From the NCBI GenBank assembly GCA_003696125.1, contig RFHZ01000673.1, positions 1 through 7,251 of the forward strand: a stretch of DNA of 7,251 nucleotides, written 5' to 3'. Below, in pieces: positions 2,790 through 7,251 of this stretch (position 1 is its first letter; each line of letters begins with the position of its first letter). The notes under the pieces are model-generated. The model searched no databases. It was given only the letters and a program-made list of their open reading frames with translations, and was not told where the DNA came from. Source of the DNA: Nitrospinota bacterium. Lineage in GTDB: Bacteria; Tectomicrobia; Entotheonellia; J063. Both the position numbers and the translations under genes were made by a program.

Positions 2790-3808
2790 CCTGCCAACTC
2801 TGTCTTTGTCCTCTTCCTGCTCATGGTGGCCGGCGGGTATAGCTATCTGATCAGAAAGGACCTCATTGCCCATCGCGAAGCCTTTGCCGTTAAGATCGCC
2901 CAGAACCTGACCCAGCATCTGGAAGATCATCTCTCGCAACTTTCTCCTTCTTTCTCGCTGGAGACGCTGTTGCAAGATCCCCCCCTCCCGGTTCCTCCCT
3001 CTTCCGATTGATCGATCAGATCTTACGACGAGCCATTTATGGCCTTGATATCGGAAAGGTAAAGATCTTTAACGCAGACCAGAGAATCGTCTACAGTACC
3101 GATCTGTCGATTGTTGGAAAAAGGGATAGGGAGAACCAGGAACTGCAGGCTGTTTTTCAGGGGAAGATCTTCTCGAAGCTCCAGACCGAGGAGGAAGGGT
3201 GGGATATCGCTGGGGAAGAACACTTGGGGGCCGATATTATCGAAACCTACATCCCGATCCGCAGTCCAGGGGAAAGAGGAACGATCATCGGGGCTTTTGA
3301 GATTTACCAGGATGCCCGCCCCCTGTACGCCGAACAACGGGAAAGTCTTTACCGATTACTCATTGCCACCGGTTTTATCTTGCTGCTCCTCTTTGCCGTG
3401 CAACTCTTCATCGTGCGTAGGGCTGACCAGGTCATCGCTACCCAGGGGATAGCCCTGACTAAGGCAGAGGAGGCGTTGCGAAGCGAGCAGGAGAAGACGG
3501 CCTGGATCCTGGATAACATGACCGAGGCGGTGATTGTGGAGAACGCCAACCATGAGATCGAGTATATGAACAGGGCGGCCATGCAGATGCTGGGAAACCG
3601 GATCGGCAATCAGTGCTATAAGGTGTTGAATTTTGATGAGCCCTGCTCGTGCTGCACAGGTCTCTGGGAGGCGATAGAACGTGGAGAGACGGAACGGACC
3701 GCCTTTTCCACGGTGAACAAGGTGGGACGTTATGGGGAACTACATAACCAACCTGACCGTGTCGCGCTGGGATCAGAACAACTTTGCCCTCTGCTTCAAC
3801 TGCCATGA
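2790..3808 (+). pseudogene. PAS sensor (histidine kinase type), frameshifted and truncated at both ends
   Basis: The frame opens directly after the hemA stop with no start codon before the first membrane helix (NSVFVLFLLMVAGGYSYLI). A helical segment follows (AHREAFAVKIAQNLTQHLED). This frame stops at 3009-3011; the protein resumes at a TTG at 3008 in another frame. Adding one C to the C7 run at 2979-2985 joins the two. The second part has a periplasmic Cache-like domain (KIFNADQRIVYSTD and ETYIPIRSPGERGTIIGAFEIY, residues 18-100 counted from the TTG at 3008) and a second TM helix (115-136). A short coiled segment and a PAS domain (AWILDNMTEAVIVEN, 165-about 240) complete it, with cysteines C203, C213 and C216. 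No HisKA, HATPase, GGDEF or other output domain follows. Sequence stops making PAS sense near 3731 and the frame then overlaps the cytochrome gene. It was probably the sensor part of a two-component kinase. Confidence 0.75.
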
Positions 3809-4217
3809 TGTGAACAAACTCGTCCTGGCCAGGAGATGGGATGATGGGGCGAGTACCAACTTTTATGACGACATCGATGGGAAGGATAATCTCCACTGGG
3901 TCCATCTCGTAGACCGGGTAGACAAATCCAGGGCGGTGTGTCATAACTGCCACTACAACGTCCATAGCAATGTGGAAGCGACCAATACCCAATACCGCAT
4001 CGATGGGGTCCTGTATACGACACCACCTTCTCATGTTCATACGCACCTGATCAACTTCTCCCCCGACGTCCAGCCGTTCGGGGGACGCACCAAACCCGAG
4101 TGGTGGATCAACACCACGACCCGTGAACGCCGGTGTTACCTGCGTTGTCATGGCTCCGAAATGGATGGACTTCAGTACAGACCAGATCGGGGGGATGATA
4201 ACCCGACGTTTCCGTAA
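3732..4217 (+). CDS. Multiheme c-type cytochrome, C-terminal fragment
   Basis: The frame is open from 3717 and the first ATG is at 3732, giving 161 residues. There are haem-attachment motifs C21-F-N-C24-H25 and C70-H-N-C73-H74, plus C135-Y-L-R-C139-H140, which has three residues between the cysteines instead of two. Candidate distal ligands include H56, H59, H78, H101, H103 and H105. The run NNFALCFNCHD, then NLHWVHL and a second CxxCH, matches the doubled-CXXCH type of multiheme cytochromes of metal- and sulfur-reducing bacteria. There is no signal peptide, which c-type maturation in the periplasm requires, and no good ribosome-binding site. I therefore read it as the 3' end of a larger gene joined out of frame to the sensor. 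The beta-propeller gene follows 85 bases downstream on the same strand. Confidence 0.75.
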   Translation: MGNYITNLTVSRWDQNNFALCFNCHDVNKLVLARRWDDGASTNFYDDIDGKDNLHWVHLVDRVDKSRAVCHNCHYNVHSNVEATNTQYRIDGVLYTTPPSHVHTHLINFSPDVQPFGGRTKPEWWINTTTRERRCYLRCHGSEMDGLQYRPDRGDDNPTFP

Positions 4218-4302
4218 AGGGGAACCCTGCCTTCCGCCTTTTCCACCAGGGAAGAGAGGGGAAGGGACTTATAGACAACCACCATGCAAAGGGAGATAGT
4301 TG

Positions 4303-5355
4303 ATGGGGCAACAAGGTTGTAACTGCAGTGTTTTCGGGGGAGTATGGTTCCTGGTTTTTCTCCTGCTGTCCGTTTCCCCCAGGGCGATAGCAGGCTCTTC
4401 TCCGGACTTTACTATCATCAGTTATGAGGCCGGAAATGCTCCCTTCTTTATCCAGGTCGCCGACTTCGACCAGAATGGGAGCATCGATTTTTCCCTGGTA
4501 AACCGCGATTCGCATAACGTCACCGTCTTTCTGGTGACGCCGGATGGGCAGGGGGGAGTCAAGGTCGAGCAGTGGAGCTACAAGAGCGGCAGACACCCGG
4601 AGGGGCTCTTTGCCGGTGACCTGGATGGAGATGGGGATCCTGATCTGGTGACGGTCAATCTGGGGGAGAACTCCTTTACTACCCTCCTGAACAAGGGGAA
4701 GATCGAGGAGTACGGTATCCTCGATCTGGTACAGGGAACCCGTTATCCTGTCCAGGGGAATCCGCATGCCATCTGGGGAGGGGATTTTGACCGGGACGGA
4801 GACATCGATCTGGCTGTGGTGGTGGAGGAGTTTCATGCCAGCGGGAATCGCGGCCGGGTCCTCCTCTTCCACAACAACGGAACCGGGAAATTCCAGGCGC
4901 AGGCCGCGGTGACAGTAGGGACCGAACCCCACGCCCTTACAGGAGCCGATCTGGATCGAGATGGAGCACTCGATCTGATCGTCAGCAACAAGGGCTCCCG
5001 GACCCTTTCCCTCCTCTTTAACGATGGGAAAGGGGATTTTGCGCACATGACGACATTGGAGGTCGGGGATGCACCGCATGGAATCGGTGTGGCCGATCTG
5101 GATGGGGATGGAGACCAGGATCTGGCGATCACCAACATCTCTGCCCATACGGTCACCCTGGTTATCAACCGGGGAAAGCGACGCTTCGAGAAGGGGAAGG
5201 TGATCCCGGTACACGCCCGGTTCCCCTTTGCCGTGATCGGTGTCGATATCGATAACGACGGGGATAAAGATCTGGTCACTGCCAACCTGGTGGGGGACAA
5301 TATCTCCCTGCTCCGTAATGGTGGGAAAGGGGACCTGCGCTTTGCCCAGACCTAA
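4303..5355 (+). CDS. Secreted FG-GAP/VCBS beta-propeller protein
   Basis: A 350-residue protein. The ATG at 4303 is preferred over the adjacent TTG at 4300; AGGGAG lies seven bases upstream. Residues 13-30 form a hydrophobic signal sequence ending in AIA with likely cleavage before GSSP, so it is probably exported. Six calcium-binding D-x-D-x-D-G-x-x-D-L/F loops start near residues 54, 106, 161, 216, 265 and 315 (for example DLDGDGDPDL, DFDRDGDIDL, DIDNDGDKDL). Each is followed by a strand pair ending in a variant of L-L-x-N-x-G-K-G. This is the integrin-alpha-like FG-GAP/VCBS propeller fold, used for surface binding or adhesion; the ligand is unknown. The last blade stops soon after NGGKGDLRFAQT, so the C-terminus is short for a closed propeller. 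Loop residues are intact. It may have been co-transcribed with the upstream cytochrome. Confidence 0.9.
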   Translation: MGQQGCNCSVFGGVWFLVFLLLSVSPRAIAGSSPDFTIISYEAGNAPFFIQVADFDQNGSIDFSLVNRDSHNVTVFLVTPDGQGGVKVEQWSYKSGRHPEGLFAGDLDGDGDPDLVTVNLGENSFTTLLNKGKIEEYGILDLVQGTRYPVQGNPHAIWGGDFDRDGDIDLAVVVEEFHASGNRGRVLLFHNNGTGKFQAQAAVTVGTEPHALTGADLDRDGALDLIVSNKGSRTLSLLFNDGKGDFAHMTTLEVGDAPHGIGVADLDGDGDQDLAITNISAHTVTLVINRGKRRFEKGKVIPVHARFPFAVIGVDIDNDGDKDLVTANLVGDNISLLRNGGKGDLRFAQT

Positions 5356-5510
5356 TCCCGGATGATGTGACGGTCAATGATCTCGTACAGGCCAAAGCTG
5401 ACCAGGAGCAGTATGGCAACGGCACCCAGCAGGGACAGGAGCAGGAAGGTTTTCACCAGCCGGGCGTGTTGCCTGTCCGCGTACGGTGAGGAAAAGGGGG
5501 TGTCCTGCAT
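5352..5510 (-). CDS. Small single-span membrane protein
   Basis: A 52-residue protein. The ATG at 5510 is chosen because AGAAGGAG lies about ten bases upstream; an in-frame start at 5582 would overlap a promoter. Residues 1-20 are polar and basic near the membrane (RQHARLVK). Residues 21-42 are a strong membrane helix (TFLLLSLLGAVAILLLVSFG), and 43-52 (EIIDRHIIRD) would lie outside. The basic cytoplasmic tip and the stalk-like sequence after the helix resemble the first segment of a sensor protein, so this may be a truncated sensor rather than a true small protein. Its TAG at 5352-5354 overlaps the TAA of the beta-propeller gene at 5353-5355, end to end. A sigma-54-type promoter lies upstream, which argues that it is expressed. 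No family recognised. Confidence 0.6.
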   Translation of the reverse strand: MQDTPFSSPYADRQHARLVKTFLLLSLLGAVAILLLVSFGLYEIIDRHIIRD

Positions 5511-5577: not shown

Positions 5578-5593
5578 AGCAATTTTTATGCCA
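5578..5593 (-). promoter_or_regulatory. Sigma-54 (-24/-12) promoter for the small membrane protein
   Basis: Read on the minus strand, TGGCA (5593-5589), six bases, then TTGCT (5582-5578) matches the sigma-54 consensus TGGCAyr-N4-TTGCw at all the key bases, with the required GG-N10-GC spacing exact. The predicted transcription start is near 5567. That leaves a leader of about 57 bases that contains the ribosome-binding site of the gene at 5510. The region upstream lies partly in the 3' end of the toxin gene. Confidence 0.68.
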
Positions 5594-5663
5594 TGTTTTC
5601 CAATACCCCGGGTGCCAGGAACTATAGACTCGTATGCTCCTGAATCGAGAAGGTATTCTCATA

Positions 5664-6101
5664 TCATGGCCTCTCCCCAGGGAATACTTCAAGACCAGCA
5701 CGACGGGAGGCTTCCCAGAGTTGCCGATCATATGTTACCATGCAGACAGACTTTCCGAGCATTTCTTTCCAGAAAAGGGCACAAGCCAGATGGACCGCGT
5801 CATACCCTCGCAATCCTTGTTCCCAGGCCAGAGTACTCGCTTGGGCCACCACCTGCTCCGTGGGTTGCAGGCGGTTGAAGCGGATCCACTCGGCAGAGAA
5901 GTAATCCAGAGCTACCGCGGCTTCCTTCTGCGAGAGAGCACGCATCCGTACGGCTTGGGCGAGGGTTGCAGCAACCTCCACCCGGCTCACGATTCCTGTC
6001 CCTACCACCTCAGCCTTGGCCAGGAGTGCTTGCACCTCCTCAGAACCAGGCTCTGCCACGTAGCGCTTGACGATGGCGCTGGCATCGAAGTAGAGGATCA
6101 C
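5664..6101 (-). CDS. PIN-domain ribonuclease toxin (VapC-like)
   Basis: A 145-residue PIN-domain protein. The GTG at 6101 overlaps the antitoxin stop as GTGA, with GGAG about eight bases upstream inside the antitoxin gene. PIN acidic residues are all present: D6 (in YFDASA), E42 (in SRVEVAA), D101 (in GYDAVHLA) and D125 (in VTYDRQL). These coordinate magnesium/manganese, and members of this family cut RNA, often tRNA or rRNA. The length and LRGYDAVHLACAL motif suit the VapC-type subgroup whose partners are Phd-like antitoxins. The exact RNA target cannot be read from sequence. It is translationally coupled to the antitoxin, keeping the pair in balance. All catalytic positions are kept, so the toxin looks active. 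Confidence 0.9.
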   Translation of the reverse strand: MILYFDASAIVKRYVAEPGSEEVQALLAKAEVVGTGIVSRVEVAATLAQAVRMRALSQKEAAVALDYFSAEWIRFNRLQPTEQVVAQASTLAWEQGLRGYDAVHLACALFWKEMLGKSVCMVTYDRQLWEASRRAGLEVFPGERP

Positions 6102-6373
6102 TCTCGATTCTCCACGAGGATCTCTGCTACCGTTTTCCTCCCTTGCAGTCGGGCCACTGGTGGTCGTGGCTCCAGCTTCCCCTGGGCCCGGACGAGGTAC
6201 CCAAGTATTGCCATCGCCTCGAGACGATCCTCGAGGGGCTTTTCCACCGGCACGATCCGCCCAATGGGACGACCCCTCTCTGTGATCTCGATCGTCTGAC
6301 CCGCCTTGGCCAGCCGCAGGTAATGGTTCAAGCGACTTTTAAGCTCCCGAATGCTTACCGTGGTTTCTAGCAT
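6098..6373 (-). CDS. Phd/YefM-family antitoxin
   Basis: A 91-residue antitoxin. The ATG at 6373 has GGAGG five bases upstream; the longer in-frame start at 6424 would run through the probable promoter. The N-terminal DNA-binding and dimer domain reads MLETTVSIRELKSRLNHYLR and then GQTIEITERGRPIGRIVPVE at about residues 1-46, the typical Phd pattern. The C-terminal part (LEARGKL-type charged segment from LEDRLEAMAILGYLVRAQGK to EILVENRE) should wrap the PIN toxin and block its active site. The protein would also repress its own operon with the toxin as co-repressor. It overlaps the toxin gene by four bases. Confidence 0.9.
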   Translation of the reverse strand: MLETTVSIRELKSRLNHYLRLAKAGQTIEITERGRPIGRIVPVEKPLEDRLEAMAILGYLVRAQGKLEPRPPVARLQGRKTVAEILVENRE

Positions 6374-6424
6374 GTGTTCCTCCACATATGTTGACACTCT
6401 GACATTGTAATTCCATTCTACCAT

Positions 6425-6454
6425 ATTGTAGTTAGTTCATACTGAAAAATACAA
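6425..6454 (-). promoter_or_regulatory. Sigma-70 promoter of the toxin-antitoxin operon
   Basis: On the minus strand, TTGTAT (6454-6449) and TACAAT (6430-6425) are separated by 18 bases. Predicted transcription starts near 6418, about 45 bases before the antitoxin ATG. Between them lie an 8-bp palindrome ACATATGT and two TGTCA copies three bases apart, plausible operator elements for Phd autoregulation. The operator is inferred from position only. Confidence 0.5.
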
Positions 6455-6502
6455 TCTTTATCTGTTTCAGGTTAGTGGGATCACCGCTATGAGTAGGATG
6501 AA

Positions 6503-6540
6503 CTGTGCCCACCGACCGCTGGTGGACGGAGTCCACCCTA
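6503..6540. repeat. REP-like palindromic element
   Basis: A perfect inverted repeat has arms 6521-6527 (GGTGGAC) and 6531-6537 (GTCCACC) with a three-base loop. A third segment, CCACC at 6509-6513, can also pair with GGTGG at 6521-6525, so two hairpins compete. The GGTGGAC...GTCCACCCTA layout resembles dispersed extragenic palindromes that are mobilised by REP-associated tyrosine transposases. Only one copy lies in this window, so repetition in the genome is inferred. Confidence 0.5.
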
Positions 6541-6594
6541 CAAGGGATCAATGGATAGAATCCCCTTTTCCTTCAAATGGAGACAGATACGCTG

Positions 6595-6623
6595 TTGTAT
6601 ACCCCTTGCCAGAGTGGTATTAT
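6595..6623 (+). promoter_or_regulatory. Possible sigma-70 promoter, long leader
   Basis: TTGTAT at 6595-6600 and TATTAT at 6618-6623 are 17 bases apart. A transcript from here would have a leader of over 300 bases before the radical SAM gene and would pass through the 27-bp palindrome. The sigma-54 promoter nearer the gene is a much better match, so this is a secondary candidate. Confidence 0.3.
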
Positions 6624-6729
6624 GATAGCAGTAATGGTGTAAACCTGCAGACAGTACCGGGTTCTGGGGCAGAAACAAGCTCAAAATTTTGGTTATAGTT
6701 GCTTAGAGGGATGAGGTTCTCTGGCAGGA

Positions 6730-6756
6730 CAATTTGTCCCGAATCGAGACAAATTG
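6730..6756. promoter_or_regulatory. 27-bp palindrome, probable enhancer site
   Basis: The half-sites CAATTTGTC (6730-6738) and GACAAATTG (6748-6756) are perfect inverted copies. The 9-base centre is also symmetric except for one pair (6739/6747), so 26 of 27 positions fit a single dyad centred on 6743. This lies about 121 bp upstream of the predicted sigma-54 start, a usual distance for an upstream activating sequence of a bacterial enhancer-binding protein. No T-run follows on either strand, so it is not a terminator. The binding protein is unknown. Confidence 0.6.
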
Positions 6757-6836
6757 CCGCAAAAAAGGGGATGAAGAAGGACGGGCAGAGGCAGAGCGTG
6801 TTTCCGGTGAGGCCTGTCCACAGGATGGCTCTGGTT

Positions 6837-6853
6837 TTGGCACGGAATTTGCC
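6837..6853 (+). promoter_or_regulatory. Sigma-54 (-24/-12) promoter for the radical SAM gene
   Basis: TTGGCACG, four bases, TTGC (6837-6852) matches the sigma-54 core consensus at every conserved base; the GG-N10-GC spacing is exact (6839-6840 and 6851-6852). The predicted start is near 6864, leaving a leader of about 82 bases to the ATG at 6946. Sigma-54 promoters need an ATP-dependent enhancer-binding protein; the palindrome at 6730-6756 is at a suitable distance. Confidence 0.8.
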
Positions 6854-6945
6854 TCTGATCTCCTTAGAACTCTGGCTGATCCCTGGAGTGAAAAAACCTG
6901 GGGTGAGAATGGTGATGAGAGAATAGATCTGGAGAGGAGAGATCG

Positions 6946-7251
6946 ATGCGCTATTCAGGAGATTTCAACCAGGCTCCCTTTCTGCTCATCTGGGAGGTGA
7001 CGCGGAGCTGTGCCCTGGCCTGCCGTCACTGCCGGGCCGAGGCCATCGACTGGCGACATCCCAACGAGTTGACGCTGGAAGAAGGGAAGAAATTGCTCGA
7101 TGATGTGGCAGCCATGGGGACGCCTATCGTCATTTTCACCGGGGGAGACCCGCTGCAGCGGGAGGACCTGGAAGATCTGATCCGGTACGGTAAGCAGGTC
7201 GGTTTGCGTGTGGGGACCATCCCGGCGGCGACACCGCGGCTGACCCGGGAG
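6946..7251 (+). CDS. Radical SAM protein, N-terminal part (runs off the window)
   Basis: 102 residues are visible and the frame is open to the right edge. The ATG at 6946 has GGAGAGGAG starting about 15 bases upstream. Residues 1-20 read MRYSGDFNQAPFLLIWEVTR, followed by the 4Fe-4S cluster motif C22-A-L-A-C26-R-H-C29, the CX3CX2C hallmark. FTGGDPLQREDLEDLI at 64-79 contains the GGD/E SAM-binding motif. The start R-Y-x-x-D-F-x-x-A-P-x-x-x-x-W-E-V-T-R-x-C is shared by radical SAM/SPASM proteins related to the haem d1 and alternative-haem enzymes (NirJ, AhbC, AhbD) and by uncharacterised relatives such as the TIGR04053-type group. I favour the latter because the DFNQAPFL start fits best, but the C-terminal SPASM domain, which would decide, is not in the window. 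It is set apart from hemA by 4 kb. Confidence 0.88.
   Translation, partial: MRYSGDFNQAPFLLIWEVTRSCALACRHCRAEAIDWRHPNELTLEEGKKLLDDVAAMGTPIVIFTGGDPLQREDLEDLIRYGKQVGLRVGTIPAATPRLTRE

Follow-up and report, generated by a model that had tools for sequence, protein, structure and literature searches.

A probable sigma-54 promoter ahead of a TIGR04053 radical SAM gene, with tetrapyrrole chemistry as a possible role for the enzyme

Introduction

The closest described counterparts of the element reported here are the sigma-54 (-24/-12) promoters that work with NtrC-type activators. Our candidate shares their consensus, their GG-N10-GC spacing and their intergenic position, and it also resembles them in having a palindrome upstream (at about -121) and rpoN and activator genes in the same genome; it differs from them in the last base of the consensus, which is C, and in lacking conservation among orthologues. 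The enhancer sites of one activator, GlrR (QseF), read TGTC-N10-GACA. Both half-sites, TGTC and GACA, are also found in the palindrome of our locus, but there they are separated by N9 rather than N10 and belong to longer arms.

The gene downstream of the candidate promoter encodes a member of the TIGR04053 family of radical SAM proteins, for which the next best family is the heme b synthase AhbD (TIGR04545). In Chloroflexota, TIGR04053 genes adjoin ahbC/ahbAB as a gene for AhbD would, but full-length TIGR04053 homologues score 319-395 bits against the AhbD model, below its cut-off of 500 bits. The siroheme-dependent pathway in which AhbD acts includes AhbA/B, whereas the MAG studied here is without them. 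In the open-access literature that we searched, TIGR04053 is named in no paper, and we found no description of sigma-54/RpoN control of this radical SAM/SPASM group, in agreement with the initial annotation of this DNA, whose author knew of no such described arrangement for the group.

Results

The stretch of DNA that we analysed (the window) is a complete 7251-bp contig, C49, of a fragmented MAG (4.18 Mb in 990 contigs, 94.8% complete, 8% contamination). The radical SAM gene is open at its right end, as the contig stops at 7251, inside it (Table 1). For the 102-residue fragment that is present, the top NCBIfam family is TIGR04053 (E 6.7e-40), followed by AhbD and then by AhbC and NirJ. Its score of only 137.5 bits, against a full-length cut-off of 395, reflects the truncation of the gene by the contig end; the full-length orthologue at locus L075, which shares 86% identity with the fragment, reaches 458.7 bits. 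The CxxxCxxC radical SAM motif (C22, C26, C29) is invariant among the homologues, and both the motif and its flanking residues are conserved in the window protein. The description of the gene as radical SAM/SPASM-like was thus borne out for the radical SAM part, with a TIGR04053 match in addition; the SPASM part lies beyond the window.

Table 1. Features of the radical SAM locus, in window coordinates
Feature	Position	Strand	Basis
27-bp palindrome CAATTTGTC-CCGAATCGA-GACAAATTG, candidate activator (enhancer) site	6730..6756		inverted repeat
Candidate sigma-54 -24/-12 promoter TTGGCACG-GAAT-TTGCC; predicted transcript start ~6864	6837..6853	+	consensus match, enrichment, shuffles
RBS-like GGAGAGGAGAG ahead of ATG 6946	6931..6941	+	read from sequence
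TIGR04053 radical SAM (SPASM-class) protein, N-terminal 102 aa	6946..7251	+	NCBIfam match; cut by contig end

The same MAG contains a C-terminal copy of such a gene (C977:3-884) that matches TIGR04053 through to its end. We rejected it as the continuation of the window gene: where the two contigs overlap, about 10 of 49 bases differ (~80% DNA identity). All 16 residues encoded in this overlap are nevertheless identical, and we regard C977 as carrying a second, diverged copy; the comparison points either to a bin that mixes two related populations or to a paralogue. The next gene after this copy on C977 encodes a hybrid histidine kinase and is convergent with it. Elsewhere in the window, genes for a Phd-type antitoxin and a PIN-domain toxin (5664-6424, minus strand) diverge from the radical SAM gene. 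Further to the left, a PAS sensor-kinase-like ORF (2823-3808) has its start split across two frames (2823-3011 and 3008-3808) and stops where a multiheme cytochrome fragment starts, at about 3720-3810; this layout is possibly due to a frameshift, to decay or to a chimeric assembly join.

The candidate promoter reads TTGGCACGGAATTTGCC and departs from the sigma-54 consensus YTGGCACGRNNNTTGCW at one position, the last, where it has C for W. It is the best match to the consensus in the window, the runners-up having 3 mismatches. Exactly 10 nt separate the GG at 6839-6840 from the GC at 6851-6852, and the site lies 93 nt from the ATG. The near-consensus element, its exact spacing and its distance to the gene were therefore reproduced as the initial annotation had given them.

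One rival explanation is that this match arose by chance, that transcription starts instead from an upstream housekeeping promoter (for example, one with the TATTAT -10-like box at ~6617-6622) and that the palindrome serves as the operator of a repressor or else forms a hairpin within a long leader. On an approximate scoring matrix, built from general knowledge of the sigma-54 consensus, the site scores 16.7 out of a maximum of ~19.8, and just 3 of 5000 dinucleotide shuffles of the 521-bp intergenic region (6425-6945) reach that score, which argues against chance. So does the 8-fold excess of the exact core TGGCAC-N5-TTGC, found 16 times genome-wide compared with 2 for a reversed-pattern control; from this excess it follows that most perfect sites in the genome are probably real, although, since the control itself yields two, some of the 16 are expected to be chance matches. 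Of the other 15 perfect sites, nine are intergenic and precede a gene, as judged with a crude gene caller, and all nine have T or A after the GC. The C at this position in the window site favors the chance explanation, as does the lack of conservation described below. A gene that begins 93 nt past the site could also be served from further upstream, but the only sigma-70-like pair in a scan of 6300-7251 is at 6399-6427, and a search for Rfam elements in the leader gave none; both results count against this rival. Taking both sides together, we regard this rival as unlikely; the element itself is unlikely to be a chance occurrence.

Perfect sites are also found upstream of groESL, of an Hsp20 gene and of ftsH (C252:6311, C692:3139 and C128:2631), which suggests, from motif positions, that this lineage has sigma-54-driven heat-shock genes; chaperones under sigma-54 control have been reported in other phyla (PMC12316311). 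The window also has a second strong sigma-54-like site, ATGGCATAAAAATTGCT, on the minus strand at 5578-5594 (score 15.8). It lies 68 nt before a small minus-strand ORF (5352-5510, 52 aa) with an RBS-like AAGGAG and a membrane segment predicted by eye.

The machinery for sigma-54 transcription is encoded in the MAG. Absence of rpoN from the genome had been named at the outset as an observation that would speak against the promoter; the gene is present and intact on C633 (E 1.4e-64, full-length, with an open frame of 489 aa). There are also ~20 AAA+ domains of the sigma-54 activator type, many of them preceded by an apparent response-regulator receiver. The palindrome has 13-nt arms that are 92% complementary, and none of 300 mononucleotide shuffles equaled its score. 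Its center, ~121 bp upstream of the predicted transcript start, is about where one would look for the binding site of a sigma-54 activator, making it a candidate activator site. At ≤3 mismatches it occurs only once in the genome, and no similar dyad accompanies the other sigma-54 sites in the genome.

For the comparison with relatives, the nearest of which were of the same class only, we used 80 homologues from named genomes. The scan of orthologous upstream regions proposed in the initial annotation gave a mixed answer. Sigma-54-like sites stand directly before the gene in two Acidobacteriota loci, L076 (at -50) and L154 (at -44), but neither the closest orthologues nor most of the others share the site, and L080, a near relative of L076, is without one. 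At L075, where the radical SAM gene follows nrfA after a gap of 3 nt, the match falls inside the coding part of nrfA and was ruled out as a conserved site; the match at 4574 of L099 was set aside because it is so near the start codon that a normal leader would hardly fit. Three matches lie no more than 150 nt from the 80 starts, a frequency above that of the background (16 in 1.35 million positions) in a comparison made post hoc.

A link of another kind is seen in three Elusimicrobia loci (L095, L097 and L099), each of which has an NtrC-type activator gene just upstream on the same strand. In L097 and L099 a kinase gene precedes that of the activator, with different intervening genes in L099. 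The linked activators of L095 and L097 (gene end ~4243-4249) have no recognisable Fis-type DNA-binding helix, and that of L099 has one. Judged from these gene orders and motifs, a sigma-54 connection recurs around TIGR04053 genes, though the site itself is not conserved. Overall, we consider the element in the window to be probably a functional sigma-54 promoter for the radical SAM gene.

It had been suggested that the trigger of this promoter could reveal the substrate or role of the enzyme. We did obtain a clue to the substrate, but from gene neighborhoods in other phyla rather than from the promoter. In seven Chloroflexota-type loci (L103, L107, L109, L111, L114, L126 and L134), ahbC is beside or near the TIGR04053 gene, with ahbA/B following in five of them and a CysG-type dehydrogenase in four; this arrangement suggests that TIGR04053 proteins may replace AhbD as heme synthase in genomes of that type. 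At two other loci, which represent two lineages, the neighbors are nrfH and nrfA: at L075 the order is nrfH, nrfA and then the TIGR04053 gene, and at L106 nrfHA lies downstream.

The MAG itself is different. At 94.8% completeness, it gave no PF22451 match for the siroheme decarboxylase AhbA/B and no clear match for NrfA; among our searches of it for AhbA/B, NrfA, HemQ and HemN, the only clear positive was a HemQ-like match (49.7 bits). Because AhbA/B are absent, an AhbD-like role in this organism would rest on analogy, and the combination of no AhbA/B, no clear NrfA and a HemQ-like protein leads us to prefer a role as a stand-alone oxygen-independent coproheme decarboxylase. More broadly, we consider the chances about even that the TIGR04053 enzyme is an oxygen-independent enzyme of tetrapyrrole (heme) metabolism.

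A second rival accepts the promoter but makes the enzyme a peptide-modifying SPASM maturase, with a signal unrelated to heme or nitrite. Many SPASM proteins mature peptides, the genome is without AhbA/B, and a neighbor of the homologue at L079 matches an HvfX-type RiPP maturation protein, with a score below the cut-off. Against this, the AhbD, AhbC and NirJ types outrank peptide maturases once TIGR04053 itself is set aside, and both the ahbC/ahbAB neighborhoods in Chloroflexota and the nrfHA neighborhoods point elsewhere. We find a maturase improbable.

Discussion

Our preferred reading is activator-gated sigma-54 control of the TIGR04053 gene, with a tetrapyrrole role as the likeliest one for the enzyme, and we hold it with moderate confidence. 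RNA polymerase with RpoN would wait at the -24/-12 element as a closed complex. An AAA+ enhancer-binding protein, most likely an NtrC-type two-component activator, a kind frequent in this genome, would bind the palindrome and open the promoter on the signal of its kinase. The TIGR04053 enzyme would then carry out oxygen-independent chemistry on tetrapyrrole side chains, for example the conversion of coproheme to heme b. That sigma-54 gates the gene through an enhancer-binding protein, as originally proposed, is favored by the likely promoter, by rpoN and by the candidate enhancer palindrome; the lack of conservation of the site in the closest orthologues tells against it.

A more specific version is that a dedicated sigma-54/activator circuit turns on an oxygen-independent TIGR04053 coproheme decarboxylase (filling the AhbD role, as an alternative to an enzyme of the HemQ type) at low oxygen or during nitrite/NO respiration. 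We offer this version as speculative, and doubt that all of its parts will hold. If true, heme synthesis would here have a signal-gated final step of a kind not described so far.

Each element of the locus is of a known kind; their combination is apparently undescribed, plausible and not extraordinary. If our reading is right, the sigma-54 regulon gains a radical SAM gene of cofactor biosynthesis, and the activator and its kinase would provide a handle on when the uncharacterised TIGR04053 enzyme is needed. The evidence from Chloroflexota operons in which TIGR04053 occupies the AhbD slot makes the substrate of this family directly testable.
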